Assembly (NCBI RefSeq): GCF_000620145.1 | Contig: NZ_KK211082.1 | Span: 1-56,842 of the forward strand | Reading direction: 5' to 3' | DNA from: Deefgea rivuli DSM 18356 | GTDB lineage: Bacteria > Pseudomonadota > Gammaproteobacteria > Burkholderiales > Chitinibacteraceae | DNA: 56,842 nt | In this document: positions 5,248-51,246 of the stretch, one piece after another | Position numbering within the stretch: the first letter of the stretch is position 1 | Layout: each line of letters starts with the position of its first letter | The notes under the pieces: generated by a model | Databases searched by the model: none | What the model was told of the DNA's origin: nothing | The model's input: the letters and a program-made list of their open reading frames with translations, nothing else | Made by a program: the position numbers and the translations under genes

Positions 5248-5372
5248 CGGTGTAATTCGCTTCGCTCAGTGCACCCTACGCAATATTCACAGAACCTTCG
5301 CAGGCAAGCCCGCTCCTACGAGGTTTTTCAATCATAAAATACCAAGGGTATATGCCGCTATAAATTAATTAT
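5248..5372 (+). repeat. Direct repeat on the promoter side of hipBA, with REP-like palindrome
   Basis: This is the partner of 3111-3236. Both begin CGGTG(C/T)AATTCGCTTCG, pass through a CCTACGCAAT block and the GGCAAGCCCGC palindrome (here GCAGGC-AA-GCCCGC, 5300-5313, with one mismatch), and end in AAGGGTATA(C/T)GCCGCTAT. Together with the R1 pieces just upstream of each, about 270 bp is repeated on both sides of hipBA. Confidence 0.75.
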
Positions 5373-5396
5373 CAAGCCCTACAAGAAGATACCCAT
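5341..5396. repeat. 55-bp palindromic element, copy 1
   Basis: The left arm ACCAAGGGTATATGCCGCTA and the right arm CCTACAAGAAGATACCCAT are inverted around an AT-rich centre. The right arm fits the CTACA-N5-ATACCC pattern of the family. It overlaps the end of the hipBA-flanking direct repeat. Confidence 0.65.
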
Positions 5397-5546
5397 CATC
5401 ACTATAAACTCAGCAAATCCATCACCAACCTCATCACACCTCCCCCGCCCCCTCCAGTCGACTAAAACAAGCCAGCCTGCTGCCAAACGCGTAAAATGAG
5501 GCCGATTCAGGGCTAGCCCCTACACCACGATGAAATCAATACTGTA

Positions 5547-6581
5547 ATGTCCGAAATCAATACTGCCATGTCGACCCCAAACACCCCTTCCCGCCGCTTT
5601 TGCATCGCCCCGATGCTGGATTGGACCGACCGCTATTACCGCCGATTTGCGCGAGAATTAAGCCAACATACTTGGCTGTATACCGAGATGGTCAATACGG
5701 GTGCAATTATCCATGGCGATAAAATGCGTCATTTGCGCTTTGATCCGGCAGAAAATCCGCTGGCTTTGCAATTAGGCGGCTCCGAGCCTGCCGATTTGGC
5801 TAAGTGCGCCAAAATCGCTGAGGAATGGGGTTATAACGAGGTGAATTTGAACGTCGGTTGCCCGAGCGAGCGCGTGCAATCGGGCTCGTTTGGTGCGTGT
5901 TTGATGCTGGAGCCGAGCTTGGTCGCCGAGGGCGTGAAGGCGATGCGGGATGCTTGCGATATTGATGTGACGGTGAAGCACCGCATCGGTATTGATAAGA
6001 TGGAAGATTACAGCTTTGTGCGTGATTTTGTCGGCGTGGTGGCTGAAGCCGGTTGCAATACGTTTATTGTGCATGCGCGCAATGCGATTTTGAAGGGCTT
6101 AAGCCCGAAAGAAAACCGCGATATTCCGCCGCTGAAATACGATTACGCTTACCAATTAAAGCGTGATTTTCCGCAGCTAGAGATCATTATCAATGGCGGG
6201 ATTACGACGCTGGCGGACAGCCAAATTCATCTGCAGCACGTCGATGGCGTGATGCTGGGGCGCGAGGCTTATCATAATCCGTGGATTTTAAACGAGGTCG
6301 ATGCGGCGATTTATGGCACTGAGCAAATTGAAAAAACTCGCCGCCAAGCGATGGACAATCTGCGTAGCTTTGTTGAAAGCGAACTGAGTTCCGGTACGCC
6401 GATTCGCTATGTGGCGCGGCATATTTTGGGGCTGTATCAAGGCGTGCCTGGCGCGCGGCATTGGCGACGGATGTTGTCGGATGCGGCACTGCTGAAGAAC
6501 GCCGATTGGCGCTTGATTGAAGAAGCGCTTAATATTGTCGAATCTCGTCAGGAACAACACCATGAAGCCCATTCGACCTAA
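5547..6581 (+). CDS. dusA: tRNA-dihydrouridine(20/20a) synthase DusA
   Basis: FMN-dependent enzyme that reduces uridines in the tRNA D-loop. It has CIAPMLDWTDRYYRRF at the N-terminus, NVGCPSERVQSGSFGACLM with the catalytic Cys, VKHRIGID and INGGITT in the TIM barrel, and a C-terminal helical tRNA-binding domain. At 344 aa it is normal for DusA. Two in-frame ATGs (5547 and 5568) lie in a 21-bp tandem duplication (GAAATCAATACTG repeated), and neither has a Shine-Dalgarno sequence, so the start is uncertain; from 5568 the protein is 337 aa. The 3' end overlaps the next gene by 20 bases. Confidence 0.95.
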   Translation: MSEINTAMSTPNTPSRRFCIAPMLDWTDRYYRRFARELSQHTWLYTEMVNTGAIIHGDKMRHLRFDPAENPLALQLGGSEPADLAKCAKIAEEWGYNEVNLNVGCPSERVQSGSFGACLMLEPSLVAEGVKAMRDACDIDVTVKHRIGIDKMEDYSFVRDFVGVVAEAGCNTFIVHARNAILKGLSPKENRDIPPLKYDYAYQLKRDFPQLEIIINGGITTLADSQIHLQHVDGVMLGREAYHNPWILNEVDAAIYGTEQIEKTRRQAMDNLRSFVESELSSGTPIRYVARHILGLYQGVPGARHWRRMLSDAALLKNADWRLIEEALNIVESRQEQHHEAHST

Positions 6582-7218
6582 ATTAGCGCTCGCTGCAATT
6601 AGTCTGTGTTTGAGTGTCAGTAGTTTCGCCGAAGAAATCACTTTGCTCGCCACGATGGGCAGCAAGGCGGTGTTTCAAGTGAATGGGCAGAAAAAATCGC
6701 TGCAAATCGGCCAGCAAGTGGGCGATGCGAAGATTATTTCGATTGCCGCTGATTCGGCGGTGATTGAGACCAGTAATGGTCGGCAGCGTCGTCTTGGCTT
6801 GGGCGAAGGCTATGTGGCATCGATCCAAACACAAAGCGATGGCGATAGCAGCTTGGTGTTGTCGCCTAGCTATGGTGGGCATTATTTGGCCGATGTGTCG
6901 ATTAATGGGCAAACTCAGCGCGGCGTGATTGATACTGGCGCGACGCATTTATCGATGTCGAGCAAAACCGCAGATGCACTCAACATCGACTACCGCAGTG
7001 GCATACAGGGACGATCACAAACGGCCAATGGCACGATCAAAGCATGGCTAGTTAAAGTGCCACAGCTCAGACTCGGTACCGTTACGCTGTATAATATTGA
7101 CCTGAGCGTGCGCGACAGTAACGAGGCAGGACCGGTACTAATCGGCATGAGTACGCTGAACCGCTTTCAAATGAAGCGCGAACAGGATTTGATGATTTTA
7201 AGTAAAAAGGCTTACTGA
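6562..7218 (+). CDS. Retropepsin-like aspartic protease, secreted
   Basis: A 218-aa protein with an N-terminal signal peptide (MKPIRPKLALAAISLCLSV...SFA). A retropepsin-type domain fills the C-terminal half: GVIDTGATHLSMS contains the DTGA active-site motif, and VLIGMSTLNRF is the hydrophobic-Gly flap-end typical of the TIGR02281 clan AA family. Residues about 25-85 form a small N-terminal domain seen in related proteins. I chose the ATG at 6562 because AGGAA lies nine bases upstream and the signal peptide begins there. It overlaps dusA and shares a TGATG junction with rdgB, so the three are probably co-transcribed. Confidence 0.85.
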   Translation: MKPIRPKLALAAISLCLSVSSFAEEITLLATMGSKAVFQVNGQKKSLQIGQQVGDAKIISIAADSAVIETSNGRQRRLGLGEGYVASIQTQSDGDSSLVLSPSYGGHYLADVSINGQTQRGVIDTGATHLSMSSKTADALNIDYRSGIQGRSQTANGTIKAWLVKVPQLRLGTVTLYNIDLSVRDSNEAGPVLIGMSTLNRFQMKREQDLMILSKKAY

Positions 7219-7847
7219 TGGTGACGACGGCAGCGACGGTGGAGAAGATGACCAAGCAGCGTATTGTGCTGGCCAGCAATAATGCGGGCAAAGTGAAAGA
7301 ATTTAATCACCTGCTGGCGCCATTTGATTTTGAAGTCATTCCACAAGGCGAACTCGGCGTCCCCGAGTGCCCCGAGCCATTTGCCACCTTTGTTGAGAAC
7401 GCACTCGCCAAAGCCCGCCATGCGGCTGAGTTCACTGGGCTGCCTGCCTTGGCCGATGATTCTGGCCTTTGTGTGCATGCACTGGGCGGCGCGCCCGGCG
7501 TGCTGTCGGCGCGCTTCGCGGGGGAACCCAAATCAGATGCGCGCAATAATGAAAAATTACTTGTCGAAATGCAGGATCAAACCGATAGACGCGCTTGGTA
7601 CTATGCCGCTTTAGTGTTGGTGCGCTCAGTCAATGATCCGCAGCCTTTGATCGCCGATGGCGTGTGCACGGGTGAGATTATTCAAATACCGCAGGGCGAC
7701 GGTGGTTTTGGTTACGATCCGCTATTTTGGCGCGCTGATTTGGGCAAAACCGTCGCGCAACTGAGTGCGATAGAAAAAGCGAGCATTTCGCACCGCGCGA
7801 AAGCACTACAAAAATTAATTACACAGCTCAAGGAAACCGGCTTGTGA
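7218..7847 (+). CDS. rdgB: dITP/XTP pyrophosphatase (non-canonical purine NTP pyrophosphatase)
   Basis: A HAM1/RdgB family housecleaning enzyme that hydrolyses dITP, dHAPTP and XTP to monophosphates and keeps deaminated purines out of DNA. Family motifs are SNNAGKVKEF near the N-terminus, the catalytic ADDSGLCVHALGGAPG, and GDGGFGYDPLF. The length is 209 aa from the ATG overlapping the upstream stop codon. A second ATG at 7248 gives 199 aa, closer to the E. coli protein (197 aa), and may be the true start. Confidence 0.94.
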   Translation: MVTTAATVEKMTKQRIVLASNNAGKVKEFNHLLAPFDFEVIPQGELGVPECPEPFATFVENALAKARHAAEFTGLPALADDSGLCVHALGGAPGVLSARFAGEPKSDARNNEKLLVEMQDQTDRRAWYYAALVLVRSVNDPQPLIADGVCTGEIIQIPQGDGGFGYDPLFWRADLGKTVAQLSAIEKASISHRAKALQKLITQLKETGL

Positions 7848-7878
7848 TGCAATTTACACAAGCACAAGGATACACAGC

Positions 7879-8106
7879 ATGAGTCAAGATGAAAGCCGCT
7901 GGGCACGTTGGGTGCGCGATGATGGCTCGGTGGTATCCTGCACCGAGAAAGTCAAAGTGATGAATGAAAACCTCGATGAATTAATGCAAATGGCACAAGA
8001 CCTGTTTGAAGACGGCCTGCTGATGGAAGTCTCCGAGACGCAAATGCGCGACGTGCTCATGCAAATGATGCATCGCCTACATAATCCCTACTCGCAAAAT
8101 CGCTAG
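7879..8106 (+). CDS. Conserved small hypothetical protein
   Basis: A 75-aa acidic, Met-rich soluble protein (RWVRDDGSVVSCTEKVKVMNEN at the front, helical remainder) with no motif I can assign. It has AAGGA eleven bases before the ATG and lies 31 bases after rdgB on the same strand, so it probably belongs to the same transcript. The long helix with regularly spaced hydrophobic residues looks like a protein-interaction module. Confidence 0.7.
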   Translation: MSQDESRWARWVRDDGSVVSCTEKVKVMNENLDELMQMAQDLFEDGLLMEVSETQMRDVLMQMMHRLHNPYSQNR

Positions 8107-8221
8107 TCACACTAAGGATTTAGCGATAGAACTTTTGTACCAAGACCTGATCTACTGTAATAACATCACGCACACCGCAGCACTCACCCCTAATTCACTC
8201 CACTTTTTTAGAGTAAAAGCC

Positions 8222-8764: not shown

Positions 8765-8911
8765 ATACTTCATCTGCTGCCTTAACTTTTAGTTAATTTC
8801 TCTGCCCGCAAGAGCCTGCCAGCCTCTGAACCTATCTTTTTCCGTGGCCTAGCTACTGAAAAATTTGGGTTTAAGCGCTGCACCGGGCTCTTGAACTTTT
8901 TTAGCGACACC

Positions 8912-10084: not shown

Positions 10085-10413
10085 AAATAGATCACGAAAA
10101 ACACGAAATAAAGTCAAAAAAGCACGAAAAAATAGCAATTTCAGATTCGATGTTGATGCCGTGCCACGATGGTTGGGCTGGGGCTTAAAAATCCCGTCCA
10201 AGCACACCGAGTGAAGGAGAGAGACGAACAGTTTTATCGTTTGGCTCACGACTGACCGAGGGCATCGGGGACCGATGTGCGCCCGGGTCGCCTTTCTTTG
10301 CTTCTTTCTTTGGCGAAGCAAAGAAAGAAGTCCTCGTCGCGGATTGCGACTGTAAAACACTGTGCCGTAGGCACTTAAAACCATCAACACGTACTCTGAA
10401 TAAAACCCTTTAT
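10085..10413. other. Gene-free stretch built of repeats
   Basis: Near 10092-10127 are CACGAAAAACACGAAA and AAGCACGAAAAA segments related to the terminal arms of the element at 41898-42045. From about 10150 the sequence matches the start of R1 copy e (GTGCCACGATGGTTG...CTGGGGCTTAAAA), and 10290-10330 holds the CTTTCTTTGCTTC / GAAGCAAAGAAAG inverted repeat of R1. An apparent 130-codon minus-strand frame is a typical artefact of this repeat. No gene is supported. Confidence 0.65.
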
Positions 10414-10470
10414 TTAAGGGTATACAAATATAAGTATCAATAAATAATGGCTACAGCCATATACCTACTG
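10414..10470. repeat. 55-bp palindromic element, copy 2
   Basis: The left arm TTAAGGGTATACAAATATAAG and the right arm TGGCTACAGCCATATACCTA are inverted around an AT-rich centre. The right arm matches GGCTACA-N5-ATACC exactly. The element ends six bases before the flavin reductase start codon, so any transcript of that gene that starts upstream carries the hairpin in its leader. Confidence 0.7.
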
Positions 10471-10476
10471 GATTAA

Positions 10477-12073: not shown

Positions 12074-12075
12074 GT

Positions 12076-12438: not shown

Positions 12439-12735
12439 ATTGGATAATGCACAGATTTGGTGTTGATAGTGTGCCGCGATGATTGATCTGGGGCTTAAAA
12501 TCCCTTGTATCAAGCCGAGCGAGGAACAAGCGGGTCGGGGTTTTTGCGATCAATGTTTGAGCGAGGCCGACGTTTTTGCCTTTGAGGCCGAACGAGTTTT
12601 GAGCGCAACCGACCCGATTGTCCGCAGCGAGGGAATCCGGCGCAGCCGGACGCAGATACTAGGGTCGCCTTTCTTTGCTTACTTTCTTTGGCGAAGCAAA
12701 GAAAGTGAGTGCCGCGCGGCACGAGCGCGACCATG
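12439..12735 (+). repeat. Long interspersed repeat R1, copy e
   Basis: This copy shares the GATCAATGTTTGAG...TTTGAGGCCGA...TTGTCCGCAGCGAGG blocks with copies b and c. It starts differently, with a TTGATAGTGTGCCGCGATG...GGGGCTTAAAATCCC block shared with 10155-10195, so R1 is a mosaic of modules. The inverted repeat CTTTCTTTGCTT (12669-12680) / AAGCAAAGAAAG (12694-12705) and GTGCCGCGCGGC end it. Minus- and plus-strand frames in it are not credible genes. Confidence 0.8.
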
Positions 12736-12810
12736 CTGAGTAGAAAATTGATGCCTTCATTTAAGCGAGATGCTGATCCATACCGAATTTCAATACGCAT
12801 TTTAATGGCG

Positions 12811-12864
12811 ATGTATTTACCTCCAAGCATTGAAATATAAGTCCTCGCAGGTAATACCCAAAGG
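12811..12864. repeat. 55-bp palindromic element, copy 3 (diverged)
   Basis: GTATTTACCT (12813-12822) and AGGTAATACC (12849-12858) are inverted arms around an AT-rich centre, and the outer end reads ATACCCAAAGG. It is the most diverged inverted pair of the family. The outer AAAGG sits where the ribosome binding site of the CoA-binding gene (start 12872) would be expected. Confidence 0.5.
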
Positions 12865-13527: not shown

Positions 13528-14358
13528 ATGAAACTCAACTTCAGCAAAATGCACGGCCTTGGTAACGATTTTATGGTCATCGATGGCGTGCGCCAGACGG
13601 TGGCACTGAGCAGCGAAACCATAGGCCAGCTCGGCCATCGCCAATTTGGCATTGGTTTTGACCAACTCTTGCTGGTCGAAGCCAGCCACACGCCGGGCAT
13701 CGATTTTCGCTATCGAATTTTTAATTGCGATGGCTCTGAAGTGGAGCAATGCGGCAATGGCTCGCGCTGTTTTGCGCGTTTTGTATTCGATCAGGGCCTC
13801 ACCGACAAAACCGAAATTTCTGTGGAAACCGCCAAAGGCGTGATTTATCCGCGCCTTGAAAGCAATGGCCTTGTCACAGTGAATATGGGCGCGCCGCGCT
13901 TTCATCCGAGCGAGATCCCGTTTGAAGCGCCGAACGAAGCGATTATTGATCCGCTGATTGTCGACGGCCAAGTTTATGATATTTCAGTGGTGTCGATGGG
14001 CAATCCGCATGCGGTTCAAGTAGTCGATTCAGTCGATACCGCCCCCGTAGCGCTGCACGGCGCTTTGATTGAAAATCACAAACGCTTCCCACAAAAAGTA
14101 AATGCAGGTTTTATGCAAATCCTTGGTCGCAGTGAAATTCGCTTGCGCGTGTTTGAGCGCGCAGCGGGTGAAACGCTGGCTTGCGGCACGGGCGCTTGCG
14201 CTGCCGTCGTCGCTGGTATTCGCCGTGGCATGCTTGATGCAACGGTACTGGTACATACGCGCGGTGGTGATTTGACGATTTCTTGGGCAGGTCATGATGC
14301 CCCGGTCATGATGACAGGCCCGGCTGTGACTGTTTTTGAAGGCAGTATTGAAGTGTAG
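13528..14358 (+). CDS. dapF: Diaminopimelate epimerase
   Basis: A 276-aa cofactor-independent epimerase that converts LL- to meso-diaminopimelate for lysine and peptidoglycan synthesis. Both catalytic cysteines are present: the first in [14 protein letters not shown], the second in [12 protein letters not shown]. The N-terminal [15 protein letters not shown] is the family signature. It heads a dapF-DUF484-xerC cluster conserved across proteobacteria; the 233 bases before it hold no recognisable gene. Confidence 0.97.
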
Positions 14359-14441
14359 AGCTTGCAAAACATCGGCTTAAGAGTAATACCTCAGCTAAAG
14401 TTTTGCGCTAATCCAACTCCTTATTACAGGGAAACTCAAAC

Positions 14442-15163: not shown

Positions 15164-16123
15164 ATGCATCCACAAACGGAGCAGCACTTCGCGCATTTTT
15201 TCCGCTATTTGCATGGCGAAAAAGCCGCTAGCGCGCATACGCATGCCGCGTATCAGCATGATCTGCAACGCCTTTCTGTATCTGCAGGCGACAAAGACCT
15301 CGCGCTGCTTAATCCGCTGGAAATTCGCGGCTTTGTGCGGCAGCTTTCTAGCCAAGGTTTATCAGGACGTTCGATTGCCCGCATTCTGTCGGCATGGCGC
15401 GTTTTTTATCGGCTGATGTGCCGTGATTTTCATTGGCCGCTCAATCCAGTGGAAGGCGTCAAAGCGCCTAAAATCATCAAAGCGCTGCCTGCCATGCTGA
15501 ATTTGGATGCGGCGGTCGGTTTTTTAGAAAATATGCCGGATGGTGAATCGCTAGAAGCGCGCGATAAAGCGATTTTTGAATTGGCTTACTCATCCGGTTT
15601 ACGCGTGAGCGAGCTGGTGAGCCTGAAGCTTATCGAAATCGATTTAAGACAAGGCCTCGCCACCGTCACTGGTAAAGGCAATAAAACCCGCATCGTTCCA
15701 GTGGGAAAAATGGCGCTCGAATCGATCCGCCGCTGGCTATTGATTCGCCCGCAACTCGCTCATCCCAATGCGCTAACGGTATTTGTGAGCAATAAAGGCA
15801 CGCCGCTCACCACGCGCGCGGTGCAATTGCGGCTGCGGCAATGGCAGGAAAAACTCGGCATCACCGAGCCACTGTATCCGCACAAATTACGCCATAGCTG
15901 CGCGACGCATTTATTGCAATCTTCTGGCGATTTGCGCGCAGTGCAAGAATTCCTCGGCCACGCCAGCATCGCCACCACGCAAGTTTATACGCATTTGGAT
16001 TTTCAGCATTTAGCAAAGACTTACGATGAATTCCATCCGCGCGCCAATAAAGAGAAGAAAAATAACCAAGGTATTGGCCTATACCCCTTATTGGACAAAG
16101 CCAACCTACCAATACCCAAGTAA
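15164..16123 (+). CDS. xerC: Tyrosine recombinase XerC, with element-derived C-terminus
   Basis: Site-specific recombinase that with XerD resolves chromosome dimers at dif. It has an N-terminal core-binding domain (about 10-95) and a C-terminal catalytic domain with Arg in SGLRVSELVSL, HKLRHSCATH, LGHASIATT and the nucleophile Tyr in QVYTHLD, all intact. I chose ATG at 15164 (319 aa); a TTG at 15122 overlapping the DUF484 stop would add 14 residues. Known XerC proteins end soon after the HPRA segment, but here the last 19 codons (NQGIGLYPLLDKANLPIPK) are encoded by a copy of the 55-bp palindromic element, which also supplies the stop context. Confidence 0.94.
   Translation: MHPQTEQHFAHFFRYLHGEKAASAHTHAAYQHDLQRLSVSAGDKDLALLNPLEIRGFVRQLSSQGLSGRSIARILSAWRVFYRLMCRDFHWPLNPVEGVKAPKIIKALPAMLNLDAAVGFLENMPDGESLEARDKAIFELAYSSGLRVSELVSLKLIEIDLRQGLATVTGKGNKTRIVPVGKMALESIRRWLLIRPQLAHPNALTVFVSNKGTPLTTRAVQLRLRQWQEKLGITEPLYPHKLRHSCATHLLQSSGDLRAVQEFLGHASIATTQVYTHLDFQHLAKTYDEFHPRANKEKKNNQGIGLYPLLDKANLPIPK
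16066..16120. repeat. 55-bp palindromic element, copy 4, inside the 3' end of xerC
   Basis: CCAAGGTATTGGCCTATA (left) and CCTACCAATACCCAAG (right) are inverted arms with a centre of normal size. The arms match the family at AAGG(G)TAT and ATACCC. The stop codon of xerC follows the right arm immediately, so the element is translated. Confidence 0.65.
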
Positions 16124-18658: not shown

Positions 18659-19978
18659 TTACCAGCAATTGCTTAGCGCACTCATCGTGCCTGCCAGCAA
18701 AAATTGAGCTTCTATATCAGTCAGACTGTAGGGTGGCATAAAATAGAGCGTATTGCCGATGGGGCGCAACAAAATTCCTTCTTTTAAGGCTTCAACAAAA
18801 CACTGCGTCGCAAACTGCGGCGGTGCATCGCTGATTTCAAATGCCCAAATCATGCCGCAATGTCGCCAGTTTTTCACCCGAGGGTGCTGCGCTAAAGGCG
18901 AAAAAATAGCACTAAAGCGAACGGCTTTTTCGCGATTAGCCGCAATCACCGCGTCATCTTTAAAAATGGCCAAGGTCGCCAAGGCCGCCGCGCAAGCCAG
19001 CGCATTGCCAGTATATGAATGAGAATGTAAAAAGGCTCTGGCGGTTTCATCCGAATAAAAGGCAGTATAGACCGCTTCGCTACAGAGTACAGCGGCCAGC
19101 GGCAAATACCCCCCAGTAATCCCTTTTGAAAGACAGATTAAATCAGGTTTAATCTCTGCCTGCTCGCAAGCAAACATCGTTCCAGTGCGGCCAAAGCCCA
19201 CCGCAATCTCATCGGCAATCAGCAAAACTTGATATTGATCGCAGAGTATACGCGCCTGAGCCAGATAGATCGGGTCATACATCGCCATACCTGCTGCACC
19301 TTGCACCAGCGGCTCAACAATCAGCGCAGCAATTTCATGCTGATGCGCGGCCAGTACGCGTTCCAAATCTTGCAGCGCCCACAGCGCGACGTCTTTCGCC
19401 GTTTGCTCGCCCTTGGCTTGGCGGGAATCTGGGCTTTGCACTGCAAAGTTCTCACGCACCAAGGGCGCGTACGCCGTGCGGAAAATCGGCACATCAGTGA
19501 CCGATAGCGCACCCATCGTTTCGCCGTGGTAACTGTCTTGCAAATAGACGAAACGATTTTTTTCCGGCAGCCCCAAATTGCGCCAATAATGCGCCGCCAT
19601 TTTCAGTGCGATTTCAGTCGCCGAAGCGCCGTCTGAACCGTAAAACGCATGACCTAATCCGGTTAATTCTGCCAGTTGCTCAGACAACTCCACCACGGGT
19701 TGATGCGTAAATCCAGCCAGCATCACGTGTTCAAGCTGATCCATTTGTGCTGAAATCGCCGCTTTGATGCGCGGCTGATTGTGGCCAAATAAATTCACCC
19801 ACCAGCTTGATACCGCATCCAGATAGCGATTGCCATCCATGTCGTACAACCACACGCCATCGCCGCGCGCGATGGGAATCAGCGGCAGCGTTTCATGGCG
19901 TTTCATTTGCGTACACGGATGCCAAACCGACGCCAGACTACGTGTTAACCACGTTTGATTTTGAGAGGCTTGATCCAT
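18659..19978 (-). CDS. bioA: Adenosylmethionine-8-amino-7-oxononanoate aminotransferase
   Basis: PLP-dependent class III aminotransferase that makes 7,8-diaminononanoate from KAPA and S-adenosylmethionine in biotin synthesis. Recognisable are SVWHPCTQMKRHE at the N-terminus, WWVNLFGHNQP, DEIAVGFGRTG with the PLP-contacting Asp, and LICLSKGITGGYLPLA with the Schiff-base Lys. It is 439 aa from the ATG at 19978 (the adjacent TTG is less likely). No other bio genes are in the window. Confidence 0.95.
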   Translation of the reverse strand: MDQASQNQTWLTRSLASVWHPCTQMKRHETLPLIPIARGDGVWLYDMDGNRYLDAVSSWWVNLFGHNQPRIKAAISAQMDQLEHVMLAGFTHQPVVELSEQLAELTGLGHAFYGSDGASATEIALKMAAHYWRNLGLPEKNRFVYLQDSYHGETMGALSVTDVPIFRTAYAPLVRENFAVQSPDSRQAKGEQTAKDVALWALQDLERVLAAHQHEIAALIVEPLVQGAAGMAMYDPIYLAQARILCDQYQVLLIADEIAVGFGRTGTMFACEQAEIKPDLICLSKGITGGYLPLAAVLCSEAVYTAFYSDETARAFLHSHSYTGNALACAAALATLAIFKDDAVIAANREKAVRFSAIFSPLAQHPRVKNWRHCGMIWAFEISDAPPQFATQCFVEALKEGILLRPIGNTLYFMPPYSLTDIEAQFLLAGTMSALSNCW

Positions 19979-20037: not shown

Positions 20038-22638
20038 TTAGCATTTTTCCAACTCAACAATCGCCGCAGTCAGCAGCGCCCCCAAGACGATCCACAGCCA
20101 GTAACTTGCCGGGATCGGACTCGAAGCGAATAAGCGATTCATGGGCGACCAGTAAGTAAATAAGCATTGCAGCACCAGCATCATCGCGCTGCCAAACCAC
20201 ACCCACGGGTTACTCCACCAGCCCAAAGTCCAGCAAGCCCCCGTTAAAGAGCGACAAGTAAATAGATAGGCAATTTGCGCAACGACAAAAGCATTCACGG
20301 CAATCGTTCGGGCTTCAATTAAAGGCACTTGCTGCGCCAGCGCCCAGTGAAATAGTCCAAACACCAAGAGTAAAAATAAGAATCCGACCATCAGCATCCG
20401 AATCACCAGCGTTTTGCCGAGCAAGGGGCTAGCAGGATCGCGCGGTGGCTGCTGCATCACGGTGGGCTCAACCGGCTCAAATGCCAGCATCATCCCTAAC
20501 AGCAGCGCCGTACTCATATTGATCCACAAGATTTGCAGCGGCGTCACCGGCAGCAGCGTGCCGCTTAAAATCGCCACCAAAATCACGCAGCCTTCGCCAA
20601 TATTGGTCGGCAAAGTCCAGGTAATAAACTTCTGCAAATTGGCGTACACGCCACGGCCTTGCCGCACGGCGGCGACCAAAGTGGCAAAATTATTATCCGT
20701 CAGCACCATAGCCGCAGCTTCTTTAGCAACTTCCGTGCCGCCCTGCCCCATCGCGATGCCAATCTCTGCCGCTTTGAGCGCGGGCGCATCGTTCACGCCA
20801 TCGCCGGTCATCGCAACGATTTCGCCATTGGCCTGCAAAGCACGCACCAATTCCAGCTTTTGCTCAGGCGCTACGCGTGCAAATACCGCGACATTGCGCA
20901 CAATGTCTTGCAATTGCTCGGGGCTATTTTTGGCTAATTCTTGCCCAGTGAGCACGGCATCATCGGCTTGCATCAAACCCAATTGCGCCGCAATCGCCAC
21001 TGCTGTCACCGGATGATCGCCGGTAATCATTTTGATGCGGATGCCAGCGGCTTGGCATTGTTCAATGGCCGCTTTCACTTCTGGGCGCGGCGGATCAATC
21101 ATGCCCATCAAGCCTAAAAAGCGCCAAGGCCCTGCTGCATTCGCGCTTAAATCCAGCTCCGGATCCAGCTTTTCAGCGTCATTGTCTTTGGCGGCAAACG
21201 CCAGTACGCGCAATCCCAGCGCTGCCATCTCGCTGACTTTACTGGCGACTTCATCTCCCATTGCGCACAAGGGCAAAATCACTTCTGGCGCGCCTTTAAT
21301 GTAATGCTGCGCGACGCCGCCCTCTGTTGCTTCATGTAGCGTTTGCATGCTTTTTCGCTCGGCGGCAAACGGCAAAGCATCTCGCCTTGGCGCTTGCTGG
21401 CGAACTTGTTCCACATCCATACCCAATTGCTGCGCCAACAGCAGTAGCGCGGTTTCGGTGGGATCGCCGCTCAATGCGCCATCAGCCAGAACAGTCGCAT
21501 CATTACACAGCACTGCAGCTTCAATTAATTTCTCGACCGATGTATCTTGATGCAGATCTTTATTATCAATGCCTACATCGCTATACCTCAGATTAATAAT
21601 ATCTTGCTCTAGGTACAAAGCGGTGACTGTCATGCGGTTTTCAGTCAAGGTGCCGGTTTTATCCGAGCAAATCACCGTAGTGCCGCCCAAAGTTTCGACG
21701 GCCGGTAAATGCCGAATAATCGCGCTTTGCTTGGCCATTCTCGCTACGCCAATCGCCAGCGTGATCGTCACTGCGGCAGGCAAGCCCTCGGGAATCGCGC
21801 CAATCGCCAAGGCCACGGCGGCCATAAACATTTCATACGCACTTTCGCCACGCGCCATACCCACCACAAAGGTCAGCACCGCCAGCGCCATGATGATCCA
21901 TAAGAGTTGGTTGGCAAATTGGGCAATTTGCCGCGTCAGCGGCGTGATCATGGCATCGGTTCGCAGCAAACTGGCCGCAATTTTTCCGGTTTCGGTATTC
22001 AAACCCGTCGCGACGACGACGCCTTTAGCGTGCCCCCGCAAGACCATCGTGCCGCCAAACACCATATTGCCGCGCTCAGCCAATTGCGTGGCGGCATCGA
22101 GTACCGCAATATGCTTATCAACGGGCAAGGATTCCCCCGTTAGCATCGCCTCGTGTGCGGCCAGCTCATTTACCTGTAATAGCCGCACATCAGCGGGAAC
22201 TTTGTCCCCGGCCGCCAAATGCACCACGTCGCCTGGAACAAGTTCTGCTACAGCCAGCCGCAGCGCCTGCCCCGAACGCACGGTATGAATGTCTTGCCCC
22301 AGATGTTCGGCCAAGGCCAGCAGCGCTTGCTCAGCACGGCCTTCTTGAATCAAACCCACCGCAGCATTAATGACGACAACGCCAAAAATCACCGAGCTAT
22401 CCACCCATTCACCCAAGACCAAGGTGACTGCACCCGCCAAAATTAGCACCAGCACTAAGGGTTGCGAGAGTTGATCCCAAACTCGCCGCCACAGCGGCAC
22501 CACCGCAGCAGCAGGCAGTTGATTTTTGCCATATTCAAGCAGCCTTGATTGCGCCACGGCATGACTCAAACCTTCTTCAGGATGTGACTGCCAGTGCGCC
22601 AAGACTTCATCGGAACTCATTTCATGCCAAATCTTCAC
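20038..22638 (-). CDS. P2A-type cation-transporting ATPase
   Basis: An integral membrane P-type pump of 866 aa. It has an N-terminal cation-ATPase domain (WHEMSSDEVLAHW), actuator motif MLTGESLPVDK, the TM4 motif AIPEGLPAAVTI, the phosphorylation site ICSDKTGTLTENRMTV, and the hinge MTGDGVNDAPALKAAEIGIAMG. The PEGLP signature places it with Ca2+/Na+/K+-type P2 ATPases; the ion is not certain. I chose GTG at 22638 because GGAGG lies six bases upstream; an ATG at 22668 would add ten residues without a ribosome site. It is divergent from ltaE and upstream of bioA. Confidence 0.9.
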   Translation of the reverse strand: MKIWHEMSSDEVLAHWQSHPEEGLSHAVAQSRLLEYGKNQLPAAAVVPLWRRVWDQLSQPLVLVLILAGAVTLVLGEWVDSSVIFGVVVINAAVGLIQEGRAEQALLALAEHLGQDIHTVRSGQALRLAVAELVPGDVVHLAAGDKVPADVRLLQVNELAAHEAMLTGESLPVDKHIAVLDAATQLAERGNMVFGGTMVLRGHAKGVVVATGLNTETGKIAASLLRTDAMITPLTRQIAQFANQLLWIIMALAVLTFVVGMARGESAYEMFMAAVALAIGAIPEGLPAAVTITLAIGVARMAKQSAIIRHLPAVETLGGTTVICSDKTGTLTENRMTVTALYLEQDIINLRYSDVGIDNKDLHQDTSVEKLIEAAVLCNDATVLADGALSGDPTETALLLLAQQLGMDVEQVRQQAPRRDALPFAAERKSMQTLHEATEGGVAQHYIKGAPEVILPLCAMGDEVASKVSEMAALGLRVLAFAAKDNDAEKLDPELDLSANAAGPWRFLGLMGMIDPPRPEVKAAIEQCQAAGIRIKMITGDHPVTAVAIAAQLGLMQADDAVLTGQELAKNSPEQLQDIVRNVAVFARVAPEQKLELVRALQANGEIVAMTGDGVNDAPALKAAEIGIAMGQGGTEVAKEAAAMVLTDNNFATLVAAVRQGRGVYANLQKFITWTLPTNIGEGCVILVAILSGTLLPVTPLQILWINMSTALLLGMMLAFEPVEPTVMQQPPRDPASPLLGKTLVIRMLMVGFLFLLLVFGLFHWALAQQVPLIEARTIAVNAFVVAQIAYLFTCRSLTGACWTLGWWSNPWVWFGSAMMLVLQCLFTYWSPMNRLFASSPIPASYWLWIVLGALLTAAIVELEKC

Positions 22639-23975: not shown

Positions 23976-24494
23976 ATGAAAAAACGTTCAATTCTTGCAG
24001 CAGCCATCTTATCTCTAGCTAGCGTAACGGCAATCGCTGCAACGGCCAGCGCGCCAATGAAAGGCGAAGGTGGTAACGACAAAGCTACTGCACCAATGAA
24101 AGGCGAAGGCGGCAATGACAAAGCAGCTAAACCAATGAAAGGTGAAGGCGGTACCGCAAAAGCAGCTAAACCAATGAAAGGCGAAGGCGGCACTGCTAAA
24201 GCAGCTAAACCAATGCACGGCGAAGGTGGCAACGACAAAGCTACTGCACCCATGAAAGGTGAAGGCGGCAACGACAAAGCGACTGCCCCAATGAAAGGTG
24301 AAGGCGGTAACGACAAAGCTACTAAACCAATGAAAGGCGAAGGCGGCAACGACAAAGCTACTGCACCCATGAAAGGCGAAGGCGGCACTGCTAAAGCGGC
24401 TAAACCAATGAAAGGCGAAGGCGGCACAGCGAAAGCAGCTAAACCAATGAAAGGTGAAGGCGGCGACGATAAAGCAGTTGCACCAACGAAATAA
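23976..24494 (+). CDS. Secreted 13-residue tandem-repeat protein
   Basis: A 172-aa protein with a signal peptide (MKKRSILAAAILSLASVTAIAATAS) and then eleven consecutive 13-residue repeats of the form (A/K)PMKGEGG(N/T/D)(D/A)KA(T/A/V), from residue 26 to the APTK end. Two main versions alternate: NDKAT and TAKAA. Every repeat keeps P-M-x-G-E-G-G and a Lys near its end. No cysteine or aromatic residue occurs, so it is probably disordered, highly charged and periplasmic or extracellular. I know no function for it. AGGGG lies about nine bases before the ATG. The minus strand is open through the array only because of the repeats. Confidence 0.85.
   Translation: MKKRSILAAAILSLASVTAIAATASAPMKGEGGNDKATAPMKGEGGNDKAAKPMKGEGGTAKAAKPMKGEGGTAKAAKPMHGEGGNDKATAPMKGEGGNDKATAPMKGEGGNDKATKPMKGEGGNDKATAPMKGEGGTAKAAKPMKGEGGTAKAAKPMKGEGGDDKAVAPTK
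24051..24479 (+). repeat. Eleven tandem 39-bp repeats within a coding region
   Basis: The array has exactly 11 units of 39 bp and no partial units. Units differ mostly at third codon positions (GGT/GGC, ACT/GCT/GCG) and by block switches between NDKAT and TAKAA, which suggests duplication and exchange between units under selection for the protein. Confidence 0.9.
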
Positions 24495-27766: not shown

Positions 27767-28081
27767 CGCTTCACCCCACCCATTTTCAATTCAAAAACTG
27801 ACTCATTCGCAGTGTAGTGCATGCATCCATAAAAACGCATGAACTTACAAAAATCAGCGCCAATCGGACGTACATCTAATAAATGTCCAGCAACTGCGCA
27901 AAACCAAGTGAACTTCAGCGCAGAAAAGTAAATCAAGCTCACTTCGCTACAGATCGACTGCTAAAGCCATAAAATATTGGTATATCTTTGTAGCTATTGA
28001 TAGATAATACACAGGCGGCAATACCCTCTATTTTTATAAAAAAAACACCCTCTTCACTTAAGAAAATAATATTGAACTCCA
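27767..28081. other. Gene-free stretch upstream of groESL
   Basis: No gene is supported here; a 63-codon minus-strand frame overlaps but has no support. The stretch holds a 55-bp palindromic element at 27976-28030 and otherwise AT-rich sequence leading to the groESL promoter. Confidence 0.6.
27976..28030. repeat. 55-bp palindromic element, copy 5
   Basis: The left arm ATTGGTATATCTTTGTAGCT (complement GCTACA-N5-ATACC) and the right arm CACAGGCGGCAATACCCTC are inverted around a 14-base AT-rich centre. It lies about 50 bases upstream of the groESL heat-shock promoter. Confidence 0.65.
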
Positions 28082-32046: not shown

Positions 32047-32103
32047 CCATAGGGTATTTGACTGTAGCCCACGTTAAATAAGTTCTACAATTAAATACCA
32101 CAT
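32047..32103. repeat. 55-bp palindromic element, copy 6
   Basis: CCATAGGGTATTTGACTGTAGC (left; its complement fits GGCTACA-N5-ATACCC exactly) and CTACAATTAAATACCACAT (right) are inverted around a 15-base AT-rich centre. On the minus strand it lies directly upstream of the thioesterase gene and its last bases overlap that gene's Shine-Dalgarno sequence. Confidence 0.75.
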
Positions 32104-39482: not shown

Positions 39483-39538
39483 AATATGTATTGACATGTA
39501 GCCATTAAAAATAAAAGCCTACATAGCAATACCCTTAG
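39483..39538. repeat. 55-bp palindromic element, copy 7
   Basis: The left arm AATATGTATTGACATGTAGCC (complement GGCTACA-N5-ATACAT) and the right arm GCCTACATAGCAATACCCTT are inverted around a 13-base AT-rich centre. It is among the best preserved copies and lies just after the hisC stop codon. Confidence 0.75.
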
Positions 39539-43397: not shown

Positions 43398-44483
43398 TTA
43401 ACCTTTTGTCCGTGCAAATTCGTTCATATAGTCAGCCAGCACTTGGCAGCCTTGCAGCGACATCGCGTTATAAATCGACGCGCGCATGCCGCCGACCGAG
43501 CGATGACCTTTGAGCTGCAATAAATGCCGCGCTTCAGCGCCAGCAAGGAATTCTTTATCCAAGTTGCTATCAGCCAGCGTAAATGGAATATTCATCCGTG
43601 AGCGATTCGCTGCTGCCGTTGGGCAATGATAAAAGCCGTTCGATGCATCAATGGCCGAATAAATCACATTGGCTTTGGCGATGTTTTTTTGCTCCATCGC
43701 CGCCAAACCACCTTGCTTCAACACATATTTAAAAATGAGGCCGGCAACATAAATTCCAAACGACGGTGGCGTGTTGTACATCGAGCCATTATCAGCATAG
43801 GTTTTGTAGTTCAACATCGTAGGTGTATCGCTGCGCGCCTTACCCAGCAAGTCCTCACGAACAATACTCATTGCCACGCCGGATGGTCCCATATTTTTTT
43901 GGGCGCCAGCATAGATCATGCCGAACTGGTTCACGTTCACTGGACGCGACAAAATATTACTCGACATATCGCAAATCAGTGGCACGCCGTTCGATTCTGG
44001 AATGTGGTTGAACTCGACGCCGCCAATGGTTTCATTACTGCAATAGTGCAAAAACGCCGCATCGGGCGTGCGCTGCCAAGTGGCTTCATCCGGCACATAA
44101 CTGAAGTTTTTATCTTCGCTGCTCGCGGCAATATTCACATTGGCATAGCGGCTCACTTCTTTGATTGCCACTTTGGACCAATGCCCGGTATTCACAAAAT
44201 CAATCGTGCTATCCGCTTGCGCAAAATTGAGCGGCAACATCGCAAATTGCAAATGCGCGCCACCTTGCAAAAACAGCACTTTGTAATTTTCAGGAATGGC
44301 CATCAAAGTGCGCAAATCGGCTTCAGCTTCAGCCAAGATTTGACCAAATTCAGGTCCGCGATGGCTCATTTCCATCACACTCATGCCTGAACCATGCCAA
44401 TCGAGCAACTCGGCTTGCACTTGTTGCAATACTTCCAATGGCAAAACGGCGGGGCCTGAGGAAAAATTAAATACTTGAGTCAT
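43398..44483 (-). CDS. serC: Phosphoserine aminotransferase
   Basis: A 361-aa PLP enzyme acting in serine synthesis and also in pyridoxal phosphate synthesis. FNFSSGPAVLPLEVL, MEMSHRGPEF and IYAGAQKNMGPSGV with the Schiff-base Lys are typical. It lies downstream of gyrA and two thioesterase genes; the gyrA-serC-pheA-hisC order is common in proteobacteria. Confidence 0.97.
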   Translation of the reverse strand: MTQVFNFSSGPAVLPLEVLQQVQAELLDWHGSGMSVMEMSHRGPEFGQILAEAEADLRTLMAIPENYKVLFLQGGAHLQFAMLPLNFAQADSTIDFVNTGHWSKVAIKEVSRYANVNIAASSEDKNFSYVPDEATWQRTPDAAFLHYCSNETIGGVEFNHIPESNGVPLICDMSSNILSRPVNVNQFGMIYAGAQKNMGPSGVAMSIVREDLLGKARSDTPTMLNYKTYADNGSMYNTPPSFGIYVAGLIFKYVLKQGGLAAMEQKNIAKANVIYSAIDASNGFYHCPTAAANRSRMNIPFTLADSNLDKEFLAGAEARHLLQLKGHRSVGGMRASIYNAMSLQGCQVLADYMNEFARTKG

Positions 44484-44575: not shown

Positions 44576-44992
44576 TTAACTTAATAAGAAATGCGCGCGG
44601 GCGGTGGCGACGGGTTGGGTTTCATCGTCTTGCCATGCCGTCATCAACACATTGGCGACGCGTTTACCTTGGCGAACGATTTCACAGCGCGCATGTAAAT
44701 CCAAAGCACGAGCTGAGCGCAGGTAATCAATCGAAAAATCGACAATACGCGGAATGCCGCTGGATTCTTGCGCCCACATCAGATGCAACACGGCGGCGTT
44801 TTCTAAAAAGCCACCAATCACACCGCCATGAATCGCTGGCAATAAGACATTACCAATATTGTGTTCAGCAAACGGCAAATAAAATTGTGGCTGGCCATGA
44901 CGCTCAATCGCTTGAATCCCTAGCAATTTTGCATAGGGTATTTTACCCAAGGCCTCGTTGATACTAGCAAAGCAAGCAATACCCTCGGCCAT
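44576..44992 (-). CDS. PaaI-like thioesterase (second of a pair)
   Basis: A 138-aa hotdog-fold protein. AIHGGVIGGFLENAAVLHLMW is the HGG core with the catalytic acidic residue at the Glu of FLEN, and VDFSIDYLRSARALDL is the second conserved strand. It overlaps the upstream thioesterase by one base (TAATG) and is probably the product of tandem duplication; the two may form a heteromer. The substrate is unknown. Confidence 0.85.
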   Translation of the reverse strand: MAEGIACFASINEALGKIPYAKLLGIQAIERHGQPQFYLPFAEHNIGNVLLPAIHGGVIGGFLENAAVLHLMWAQESSGIPRIVDFSIDYLRSARALDLHARCEIVRQGKRVANVLMTAWQDDETQPVATARAHFLLS

Positions 44993-48131: not shown

Positions 48132-48381
48132 TGATAAGGCCGGTGAGTGAAAAACAGAGGGACTATCAAAGCCAGTACTGAAATGGATTCAGACTAGCGG
48201 ACGTTACGGTAATTTTGAAACTTTGTTACAAATAACACTAACGAGTCACATTTAACTATTCTATAGTGATGGTGAAGTTTACCACGCAGAAGCATTCGAA
48301 CCAATTTTTGCGTATATCGGTGAATCAAGGAGTTGTACAATGTTACAATTCCTTTAAGTTGTTACTGCACTAGCTTTTTAT

Positions 48382-48411
48382 TTGCGTCATATTTGCCTAA
48401 GACAGTAGAAT
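48382..48411 (+). promoter_or_regulatory. Possible promoter of the ompA-like gene
   Basis: TTGCGT (48382-48387), 18 bases, TAGAAT (48406-48411), about 75 bases before the start codon. The 358-bp gap between gyrA and this gene (48132-48489) otherwise shows only AT-rich sequence; a long leader for a highly expressed porin-like gene is plausible. Confidence 0.35.
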
Positions 48412-48489
48412 ACGCCTTGGGACATATTTAGTGTTTATGTAACGCCCAGTAAGTTACATTCATTTTGATTTTATAAACGGGGAATACAC

Positions 48490-49173
48490 ATGCTGACAAT
48501 CAAGCAAACTCTGACATCATTCGCTATCGTTGCTGCTTTTGCTGCAGCTGGCGCTCAAGCTGCTACAGAGATCTACGTAACAAACGGCACTAACGTTTCA
48601 GAAGCCAACCCAGAAGGCGCGGTTAAAATTTCTGACGGCACTTGTGTTCAAACAGGTTCTTGGAATGCAGAAGCAGCGAAAAGCGTTAAAGGTTGCCAAG
48701 GTTATGTAGCTCCTTCTACTCCTGCTGTTGTTGCTCCAAAACCAGCCGTTGTTGTTCCAGCTCCTGCTAAAACTTCTAAGAAATTTGAATTGAAATCAGA
48801 CGCTTTGTTTGCTTTCAACAAATCTGATCTTAAACCAGCTGGTAAAGATGCTTTGGATGCGTTGTATGTTGAAGTTCAAGGCATGAACCCAACTGATGGC
48901 GTTGCTGCTGTTGTTGGTTTCACTGACCGTATCGGTTCAGCTAAATTCAACCAAGCATTGTCTGAGCGTCGTGCTAACACAGTACGTGATTACCTAATCA
49001 GCAAAGGTGCACCAGCTGACAAAGTAACTGCAGAAGGCCGTGGTATGGCTGATCCAGTAACTGGCGACACTTGCAAAAACGTGAAACCACGCGCTAAATT
49101 GATCGAATGCTTGGCTCCAGATCGTCGCGTTGAAGTAACTGTTTCTGGTACTGCAGTCGTTATCAAAAACTAA
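48490..49173 (+). CDS. OmpA family protein (RmpM-like, peptidoglycan-binding)
   Basis: A 227-aa protein with a signal peptide (to about residue 24), a short Cys-containing N-terminal part, a Pro/Ala/Val-rich linker (about 75-95), and a C-terminal OmpA domain: [40 protein letters not shown] and the diaminopimelate-binding Asp/Arg region. There is no beta-barrel, so it resembles neisserial RmpM, which tethers porins to peptidoglycan. Two Cys in the domain (TCKN...IECLAP) likely pair. Codons are strongly biased (GGT/GCT), which suggests high expression. Confidence 0.92.
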
Positions 49174-49193
49174 TTGAACTTCAATTAGTCAGA

Positions 49194-49218
49194 AGCCCCG
49201 CCATGGCGGGGCTTTTTT
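49194..49218 (+). terminator. Rho-independent terminator of the ompA-like gene
   Basis: AGCCCCGC (49194-49201), loop CATG, GCGGGGCT (49206-49213), then a T-run. Very stable. Confidence 0.92.
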
Positions 49219-49249
49219 ATTATCACGCATAACGTCGTGGAGCGAACAA

Positions 49250-49873
49250 TTGCCCAACTTTATTCGTCAGATTTGCATTGGTTTTGTTGCTAGCTTTCTA
49301 ACAGCTACACCTGCACTAGCCAACAATGTAGCCAAATTACAACAATATTTAAACGAAACCCAATCGTTGCAAGCCTCGTTTGTTCAGCAAGTGAGTGGTA
49401 AAAATAACAAAACTCAAACCTCAACTGGCCAAGTCAGCCTTGTCCGCCCTGGTAAGTTCCGCTGGATTTACAGCAAACCTTATCCACAAGAAATTATTAG
49501 TGATAGTAAACAAGTCTGGCTTTACGATGCCGACCTCAGCCAAGTCACCATCAAGCCCGTTGGCAAAGCGCTCGACGCAAGCCCTGCAGCGATTTTGGCG
49601 GGCAATAACAAGCTGGATGCAAGCTTTAATAGTAAAGACCTCCCCATCAAAGATGGCTTGAACTGGGTTGAACTCAAACCCAAGCAACAGGACAGCAGCT
49701 TCGCAAGAATTCGTATTGGTTTTAATAATAGCAATCTGTCGCGCATGGAACTCGACGATCAATTTGGCCAAACCACACAGATTCAATTTAACCAAGTGAT
49801 TCGCAATAAAGCGATTGATCCCAAATTGTTCACCTTTACTCCACCCGCAGGAACGGATGTCATTCGTGAGTGA
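49250..49873 (+). CDS. lolA: Outer-membrane lipoprotein carrier protein LolA
   Basis: A 207-aa periplasmic chaperone that carries lipoproteins from LolCDE to LolB. It has a signal peptide (ending ATPALA), QSLQASFVQQVSG, RPGKFRWIYSKPYPQ and [12 protein letters not shown], all typical. It starts with TTG: GGAG lies seven bases upstream and no better start exists. It overlaps rarA. The lolA-rarA-serS order is conserved in many beta- and gammaproteobacteria. Confidence 0.95.
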   Translation: MPNFIRQICIGFVASFLTATPALANNVAKLQQYLNETQSLQASFVQQVSGKNNKTQTSTGQVSLVRPGKFRWIYSKPYPQEIISDSKQVWLYDADLSQVTIKPVGKALDASPAAILAGNNKLDASFNSKDLPIKDGLNWVELKPKQQDSSFARIRIGFNNSNLSRMELDDQFGQTTQIQFNQVIRNKAIDPKLFTFTPPAGTDVIRE

Positions 49874-51182
49874 TCTTTTTGCCCGCAAGCCAGTACAGCC
49901 GCTTGCCGAACGTCTGCGCCCTAAAAACATCAGCGATGTCGTTGGTCAACAACATCTACTCGCAGCCGGCAAGCCACTGGCGCTCGCACTCGCCAGCGGT
50001 AAAGCGCACTCAATGATTTTTTGGGGGCCGCCCGGTGTGGGTAAAACCACGCTGGCGCGCTTATTAGCCGATGCGTTTCATTGCGAGCTGATCGCGCTCT
50101 CTGCCGTTTTTTCTGGCGTCAAAGACATTCGTCTCGCGATGGATCAAGCTGAACTCAATCAGCAACTGGATCGGCGTACTATTTTATTTGTCGACGAAGT
50201 TCATCGATTTAATAAAGCCCAGCAAGATGCTTTTCTGCCTTTTGTAGAATCTGGCCTCATTACTTTTATTGGTGCAACGACAGAGAACCCATCATTTGAA
50301 GTCAACGCCGCGCTTTTGTCGCGCGCACAAGTGTATGTATTGCATTCACTCGGCGAAGCGGATTTAAGCCAACTGATTGCGCGTGCCAAAGCGCAGTTTG
50401 ATCCGCCGATTGAGATTGCGACTGATGCGATTCCTGCGCTGATTGATCTAGCTGATGGCGATGGCCGCCGCTTACTGAACTTAGTTGAGCAAGCCACACA
50501 AGCCGCCCAAGCCAGCGATCGTACAGAAATCGACGCGGCATTTTTAGCCGATGCACTCAGTATTGGCAGTCGCCGCTTTGATAAAGGTGGCGATCATTTT
50601 TACGATCAAATTTCGGCGCTACATAAATCCGTGCGCGGCTCGAATCCTGATGGCGCACTGTATTGGTTAGTGCGAATGCTCGATGGCGGTGCTGACGCGC
50701 GTTATTTAGCGCGTCGCATCGTGCGTATGGCGTGGGAAGACATTGGCCTAGCCGATCCACGTGCGATGCAAATCGCCAACGATGCGGCGACGACTTTCGA
50801 GCGGCTCGGTTCGCCCGAAGGTGAATTGGCGCTCGCCCAAGCCGTGATTTACCTTGCCGTTGCACCCAAATCGAATGCTGGTTATTTGGCTTTCAAAGCC
50901 GCCAAAGCACTCATCAAACAAGATCAATCGCGCGAAGTGCCGCTGCATTTACGCAATGCGCCGACCAAATTAATGGCCGAACTCGGCCACGGGCATGACT
51001 ATCGATATGCACATGACGAACCTGAAGCCTATGCAGCAGGCGAGACTTATCTGCCCGATGGCTTGACCGATGTGCAGCTTTATCAGCCAACTCCGCGTGG
51101 ATTAGAGCAAAAAATTGTGCAAAAAATGACACATCTAGCTGAACTCGATGCAGAGTGGCAAAAACGGCAGCGCAACAAGTAA
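49857..51182 (+). CDS. rarA: Replication-associated recombination protein A (RarA/MgsA)
   Basis: A 441-aa AAA+ ATPase acting at stalled replication forks. It has the Walker [16 protein letters not shown], Walker [17 protein letters not shown], sensor 1 [14 protein letters not shown] and the C-terminal MgsA/RarA domain. The likely start is ATG 49857 (AGGA four bases upstream) or GTG 49866; an earlier ATG at 49815 lies inside lolA and gives an unsupported extension. Confidence 0.95.
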
Positions 51183-51187
51183 ATTAA

Positions 51188-51246
51188 ATGCAGGTATAGC
51201 CCTCTGTAGATTACTCAACAATGGCTACAAGGCGATACCCATAAGG
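51188..51246. repeat. 55-bp palindromic element, copy 8
   Basis: The left arm AATGCAGGTATAGCCCTCTGTAG and the right arm TGGCTACAAGGCGATACCCA, extended by TAAGG, are inverted around a 13-base AT-rich centre. The right arm is the best match to the family consensus. It lies six bases after the rarA stop codon, so it is in the intergenic region before serS. Confidence 0.75.

Follow-up and report, generated by a model that had tools for sequence, protein, structure and literature searches.

What are the palindromic sequences that recur at gene borders of Deefgea rivuli DSM 18356, and what keeps them in place? The question is raised by the first 56,842 nucleotides of contig NZ_KK211082.1 (assembly GCF_000620145.1; this whole stretch is called the window), in which a sequence-only reading had listed ten places with inverted arms and had proposed a non-autonomous mobile element, a family resembling repetitive extragenic palindromes (REPs) or a widespread regulator site. 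The element, named S here, is a 49-bp two-fold-symmetric site that is numerous, restricted to one clade, conserved between species and found at a fixed distance from a second repeat, R. S is a well-supported candidate for a protein-binding site on duplex DNA. The reading preferred here, at close to an even chance, is that S binds a putative abundant chromosome-organising protein that R uses as a beacon.

For the description of S, a 51-column matrix was trained on the copies in the window and in relatives and was refined on 20 stretches of 20 kb and the window, the window's own copies contributing to the training. The genome of the window is called G000 (3.71 Mb) and its genus g1; G034 belongs to another genus, g6. 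The unit given by the matrix is GGGTAT-N5-tgtaGCc-N13-GGCtaca-N5-ATACCC: the most conserved bases are the outer GTAT and ATAC (96-98% each; 41 bp from start to start), TA steps lie about 10 bp further in, TT/AA occur near the centre and the axis is uninformative. The palindromic pair described earlier was thus recovered, with its size corrected from about 55 bp with a centre of 13-15 bases to a 49-bp core whose spacer is nearly always 13 bp; the five bases called variable are degenerate rather than free.

GTAT and ATAC were paired 129 times at offset 41, against a mean of 4.4-4.5 at other offsets; because offset 42 was also raised (18 pairs), some sites may be one base longer. The same pair at 41 ranked first in a matrix-free scan of all 4-mers against their reverse complements (offsets 8-160), in G000 and also in G034. 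With one mismatch or none, the arm GGCTACA-N5-ATACCC has 167 matches in the whole 3.71-Mb genome and the reversed control pattern has two. With the matrix, 124 sites were found in 456,842 bp of G000 and one in a first-order Markov shuffle, so the palindromic family is real and larger than had been claimed. One S per about 3.7 kb (124 in 457 kb) extrapolates to about 1000 per genome. The DNA analysed has a G+C content of 48.1%, close to the 48.2% given for a Deefgea strain (PMC8142590), and a search of Rfam at gathering thresholds returned tRNA as the sole match and no family for S.

The window holds 19 S sites at 12 bits or more. Eight of the ten places listed earlier are full S sites (5341, 10414, 16066, 27976, 32047, 39483, 51188 and 12811, which had been called diverged); of the two presumed half copies, 3206 has the full length of a site but a decayed right arm, and 30521 scored no site. 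The matrix adds ten places (99, 2127, 2674, 14343, 19063, 19244, 21540, 43821, 44936 and 55532), among which 55532, 19244, 43821 and 19063 are weak (18.7-21.7 bits). The sites are as follows, other genomes being denoted by G numbers:

99..147, reverse strand: S site, score 32, adjoining an R fragment
2127..2175, reverse strand: S site, score 44, member of an S-R-S-R-S run
2674..2722, reverse strand: S site, score 38, member of the S-R-S-R-S run
3210..3258, forward strand: S site, score 26, right arm decayed (the half copy at 3206)
5346..5394, forward strand: S site, score 43, in the divergent gap between HTH/HipA-like genes and dusA
10418..10466, forward strand: S site, score 44, at the border of hemW and a flavin-reductase-domain gene, the same border in 7/7 species of the genus
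12811..12859, forward strand: S site, score 38
14343..14391, forward strand: S site, score 26, at the 3' end of an open reading frame (ORF)
16069..16117, forward strand: S site, score 43, at the 3' end of a gene for a tyrosine recombinase of the phage integrase family
19063..19111, forward strand: weak S site, score 22, within a class-III aminotransferase gene, present in 6/6 relatives
19244..19292, forward strand: weak S site, score 21, in the same aminotransferase gene as 19063, present in G004 and G006 and missing from G001, G002, G003 and G005 in ungapped alignment
21540..21588, forward strand: S site, score 40, within a P-type ATPase gene
27978..28026, reverse strand: S site, score 37, upstream of groEL and the small ORF that precedes it
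32052..32100, reverse strand: S site, score 41, adjoining a radical-SAM gene with a lipoyl-synthase N-terminal domain
39486..39534, forward strand: S site, score 51, the best in the window
43821..43869, forward strand: weak S-like site, score 21, within a gene, with GTGT in place of GTAT
44936..44984, reverse strand: S site, score 31, at the 5' end of a thioesterase-domain gene, kept in 6/6 relatives
51192..51240, forward strand: S site, score 46, at the border of an MgsA/RarA-type gene and serS
55532..55580, reverse strand: weak S site, score 19, within a gene

The second repeat, R, which the earlier reading did not contain, is a true mobile element, a miniature inverted-repeat transposable element (MITE): it is short (about 235-360 bp end to end), has terminal inverted repeats of 26 bp (inverted ends GGCGATGTTCAGATTnnGTGTTGATG) and duplicates its target. 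Within 60 bp of an S lie 21 of its 28 matched copies and fragments. For the measurement of distances, 27 distinct R ends were read at 27 loci, out of 40 end matches in G000, with the S threshold lowered to 6 bits. Fourteen of these ends face an S, 12 of them at exactly 10 bp, one at 9 and one at 7. In all, 24 of the 27 are ends of copies that have S on one side, ten of them being the far ends of such copies, and three have no S, one of which is at a contig end. Among seven two-ended copies, an 8-bp duplication is perfect in three, matches at 7 of 8 positions in one and is not clear in three, two of which lie in a tandem S-R-S-R-S run. The hemW border carries only S in G004 and both repeats in G000, which indicates that R arrived there at a standing S. 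The R features of the window, with no strand assigned, are:

10133..10407: R element (MITE) with approximate ends, one of which lies 10 bp from S 10418; G004 lacks it at this border
2202..2500: R body, between the S sites at 2127 and 2674
2742..3048: R body, between the S sites at 2674 and 3210
12452..12764: R element, with 46 bp between its matched body and S 12811
3..82: R fragment adjoining S 99
5074..5145: R fragment at a distance of 200 bp from S 5346

No R ends were found in five genomes without S (G030, G062, G033, G031 and G027). Two were found in G035, a genome of genus g8 (the two ends of one copy, beside S), and one in G013. In 400 kb of G034 no recurrent flank word indicated R beside S in g6, and two partial R-end matches lay 239 and 483 bp from the nearest S. 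The R ends, which start with GG, and the 8-bp duplications presumably recall elements of the ISL3 or IS1595 kinds. Tn7 recognises a sequence, attTn7, and inserts at a constant position with respect to it. R resembles Tn7, and the insertion sequence (IS) elements that target REPs according to excerpts of PMC1525189, in its set insertion place; unlike Tn7-type targeting, it involves a MITE with 8-bp duplications and many sites. A tandem S-R-S-R-S run with two identical S copies was also seen at locus L173 (7800-8667), and a similar run occupies window positions 2127-3258.

Conservation was measured on 86 S sites from the window and from stretches matched to it, in seven species of the genus. Orthologous pairs alignable across S numbered 195, of which the 163 gapless ones were used and the 32 gapped ones left out; the pairs are not independent, four of the species being close. 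S was kept at a score of 12 or more in 156 of the 163 pairs, and four pairs dropped below 0. The GTAT/ATAC positions are 98% identical, compared with 84-85% for the flanks and 54% for the axis. The difference holds in coding sites (ends 97%, flanks 82%; 94 pairs) and in intergenic sites (ends 99.5%, flanks 87%; 69 pairs), including the eight of these 69 pairs that reach beyond the four close species (ends 98%, flanks 80%).

All four low pairs concern site 19244 in the aminotransferase gene, which G000, G004 and G006 possess and from which the other four species differ by ungapped substitutions. S is thus not an ordinary transposed repeat: the site is kept in gapless orthologues, its ends are conserved over the flanks and it differs within a gene by substitution without a gap. 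The earlier proposal that S is itself a non-autonomous mobile element is not supported, on these grounds and given its presence at the hemW border in all seven species. By sequence comparison, S would arise at least partly by point mutation. Individual borders behave differently: at the rarA-serS border (51192) the ends survive in G004 and G006 with a diverged interior, and the site is missing from G001, G002, G003 and G005.

The arms do not behave as those of a hairpin. Six of eight window copies fold near shuffled energy, none of 25 symmetric column pairs exceeded |z| 2.4 for covariation (115 sites), and half-site hairpin axes were not enriched among 213 sites. The strongest column dependences (213 sites) join neighbouring bases and so resemble protein-DNA contacts. 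The S matrix has no T run of the kind found in intrinsic terminators. S as a hairpin or terminator is therefore not supported by folding, by covariation or by the terminator counts given below, in which two genomes disagree.

The distribution of S was assessed in 43 genomes of the family by scoring at most 138 candidates per genome, a palindrome being counted on both strands. At least 129-138 matches were found in each of 15 genomes from three genera (seven of g1, six of g6 and two of g11), and at E 0.01 the 19 genomes from seven other genera gave no match. G034, with the matrix retrained on it, has 109 sites in 400 kb, a density similar to that of G000 (124 in 457 kb); the G000 matrix found 22 sites at 14 bits in another 100 kb of G034. 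Within g8, seven of nine genomes gave 3-10 matches; in each genome the strongest were crowded at a single place, and a few weaker ones lay apart from it. These seven places adjoin type I restriction specificity genes (hsdS), fic or yhcG, or lie in a glutaredoxin/FMN-reductase island. The simplest reading is that these few sites are DNA received from S-bearing relatives. No S sites were found in five stretches (100 kb) of the g8 genome G030 or in 100 kb each of G027 and G033, and no dyad of another sequence was found in 100 kb of each of these related-genus genomes. The best named matches of the window's serS are betaproteobacterial (e.g. Pseudogulbenkiania, Aquitalea, Chromobacterium, Formivibrio and Iodobacter, own-genus records having possibly been left out), and at 80 named betaproteobacterial loci obtained from these matches no S site reached 14 bits. 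In a viral collection the S pattern occurs in five contigs, with one site each and scores of 15-29, two of the contigs being near-identical P2-like tail regions; these matches may be chance and are taken as such.

Some loci seen in this survey are recorded separately. In g8 type I restriction loci, single accessory genes (hsdS, fic) have S on both sides, inside apparent operons (L215 8973-10386; L211 7858-9525; L213 9717-11189), and the S-bounded hsdS genes possibly represent cassette-like exchange. Another dispersed palindrome, about TCATCCCCGA..TCGGGGATCCAG, gave 10 and 21 matches around g8 restriction loci (L211 and L212, respectively). In the two viral contigs with P2-like tail regions (L288 1874, L290 492), the S-like site, of score 29, lies at the start of a gp25-type gene.

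With respect to genes, the 124 sites of G000 were placed as follows: 24 in 14.7 kb of convergent gaps, 44 in 45.0 kb of tandem gaps, 4 in 15.0 kb of divergent gaps, 41 inside genes, 5 at gene ends and 6 at the edge of a stretch, where two neighbouring genes were not available; 81% of this DNA was called as coding. At the medium gene-call threshold, S was present in 12/23 convergent, 24/123 tandem and 1/30 divergent gaps of G000, and in 15/27, 20/99 and 0/27 of G034. Sites inside genes score lower (median 23 vs 40-45 between genes). An intergenic or gene-end location, as first described, thus holds for most sites and fails for the 41 inside genes. S is also evenly spaced: the coefficient of variation (CV) of the intervals is 0.68 in G000 against 0.88 in a control in which intergenic sites stay at gene ends (fraction of simulations 0.0005), and 0.82 against 0.96 in G034 (0.035); S is also more even than under uniform placement. 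Even spacing, similar density in two genera, avoidance of promoters and the fixed R distance point to an abundant chromosomal protein.

From these observations we infer a protein, its oligomeric state, its occupancy of S and a chromosomal role, in the following form. The S duplex is the predicted binding site of an abundant intracellular protein. Two dimers of it would probably occupy one face of the helix over about four turns, with predicted contacts at GTAT/ATAC, at the TA steps a helical turn further in and at TT/AA close to the centre. The roughly 1000 sites per genome would arise partly by point mutation and be kept by selection, placed where they disturb least: mostly at gene ends, chiefly convergent ones, rarely at promoters and in weaker form inside genes. 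The most likely job of S would be the organising or spacing of the chromosome. R would land at an occupied S with single-base precision, 2 bp beyond the site and with an 8-bp target duplication. More tentatively, and with less confidence than in the binding protein and its use by R, the three Chitinibacteraceae genera might possess a new chromosome-organising system, in which an abundant sequence-specific protein sits on about 1000 evenly spaced, selected dyads and R records its occupancy by fixed-base insertion. If S is occupied by protein, it would form an unusually dense pattern of long sequence-specific binding sites on a bacterial chromosome, with closely related genera that have no S as natural controls, and the spacing or partition of bacterial chromosomes by sequence-specific proteins would become directly testable. 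The S-R pair may serve as a ready case of a transposon that targets a landmark of the chromosome located at gene ends and there causes little harm.

Several observations weigh against this account. No cognate protein of S was found in a phyletic-pattern test that covered two families over the 43 genomes, and the chromosomal role is deduced from spacing and context. Uptake sequences are likewise evenly spaced and at gene ends. The spacing result in G034 is modest, the under-dispersion of S counts in 20-kb intervals of G000 is not significant (P 0.16), and the gene calls were home-made with a simple codon-usage script. Of the 86 queried sites, 21 (19 intergenic) have no alignable orthologue; turnover between borders is therefore real and conservation was measured on the remainder. 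The substitution case is one weak site (19244). Two of the eight window copies form good single-stranded folds (z -3.4 and -3.8), and the arms match slightly beyond the prediction from independent columns (pooled z 5.1; 213 sites, main dyad), so the folded strand of S may have some role.

It is unlikely that S is instead an uptake or self-recognition sequence resembling the DNA uptake sequence (DUS) or uptake signal sequence (USS), its roughly 1000 copies being kept by biased uptake and recombination (molecular drive) without any chromosomal role. Known uptake sequences have short, non-palindromic cores (about 9-12 bp). S, unlike them, is a long palindromic dyad of 49 bp, and the fixed base at which R inserts next to it suggests either a factor bound to S inside the cell or a transposase that recognises S. 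The likeness is nevertheless considerable, as excerpts of PMC1939737 and PMC3630211 describe uptake sequences as clade-specific, very numerous, present in genes and at gene ends (terminators) and evenly spaced. Furthermore, the host lies within Neisseriales, the strongest g8 sites are in accessory loci (hsdS, fic, yhcG), as expected for DNA from S-bearing relatives, and in 457 kb of G000 no further short word was conspicuous for an abundance like that of uptake sequences. The even spacing of uptake sequences was once taken to point to replication, repair or compaction, a view that a later paper doubted (PMC1939737); this warning applies to the spacing of S as well. A protein roadblock or insulator at gene ends, stopping read-through between convergent genes, is quite unlikely. 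It would suit the preference for convergent gaps in both genomes and the position of 20 of 41 gene-end sites, whose edges fall -3 to +11 bp from the stop codon. Convergent ends of G000 with S are also poorer in intrinsic-terminator-like hairpins (4/24 vs 14/20 without S, P 0.0006; 4/22 vs 16/39, P 0.09, under other gene calls), but the tendency is opposite in G034 (19/26 with S, 11/22 without, P 0.14), S in tandem gaps is not clearly nearer the upstream stop (9/20 in G000, 12/16 in G034) and 41 of 124 sites are inside genes.

That S is a REP-like or other mini-mobile repeat, which a transposase spread and which is now in decay, is very unlikely. REPs and bacterial interspersed mosaic elements (BIMEs), with their REP-associated tyrosine transposases (RAYTs), are, like S, numerous, mostly extragenic and found at convergent and unidirectional gene ends (excerpts of PMC1525189 and PMC3733652); the excerpts also report REPs as IS targets in other bacteria and, in PMC3733652, REPs inside genes. 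The location of S agrees with that of REPs (extragenic, in convergent and tandem gaps), though 41 of 124 sites are inside genes, and the existence of a few near-perfect palindromes among the S copies, the two well-folding window copies and the many intergenic sites without an alignable orthologue would fit this reading. In mechanism S departs from REPs: it is 49 bp long with no GTAG-tagged hairpin of complementary arms, no covariation of hairpin strength and no half-site hairpin signal, its ends are under selection and its centre is not, it differs by point mutation in coding DNA (19244), and no RAYT is linked to it. The earlier suggestion of a RAYT-type gene was rejected, as the Y1 transposase family PF01797 does not track S, being missing from five of the 15 S-bearing genomes (G003, G004, G011, G061 and G016) and present in genomes without S. 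Of the three options first proposed, a widespread site for a protein fits best, in the form of a protein-binding site and not of an ordinary promoter regulator: we see only a faint chance that S serves a very global transcription regulator as its operator, which the two-fold symmetry and the copy just before the flavin-reductase gene in 7/7 species would suit, but divergent gaps are the poorest in S (1/30 and 0/27) and a third of the G000 sites (41/124) are inside genes. Next to no weight is given to an attP-like site of a large serine recombinase; the strong outer motifs of the 49-bp dyad are spaced in a way similar to attP sites, but the distribution rules out proteins matching PF07508, which are missing from 12 of the 15 S-bearing genomes, the window's own included.

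No published account of the S motif or of Deefgea palindromes was among the literature matches listed. Other close cases are the fixed-spacing motif pairs of Tong et al. (2017; excerpts of PMC5217627), which lie near gene ends, often between convergent genes, e.g. GCTTAT-N5-AAGCG in Acidovorax ebreus (114 copies) and ATAGCT-N22-CAAAAG in Polaromonas (125 copies). None of the eight pairs of their Table 7 shares the sequence or spacing of S, their copies are fewer, and their section on motif pairs contains no test of conservation or of transposon targeting, unlike the present analysis. S thus differs from its nearest known cases, REPs and spaced motif pairs, in length, number, evidence of selection and targeting.

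Genes beside the window's S sites were also noted. The S site at 21540 corresponds to a variable loop of the P-type ATPase, whose length differs from that of a solved relative. A DUF4062-domain gene (window 274-1428) is flanked by the S sites at 99 and 2127. Window 3243-4831, between S sites, contains a HipA-like gene and an HTH partner, which look like an accessory toxin-antitoxin pair; most of this segment has no match in G004. At window 24054-24491, a 39-bp tandem repeat occurs in 11 copies within a small ORF (23976-24494), with repeated matches also in G004 and G006.

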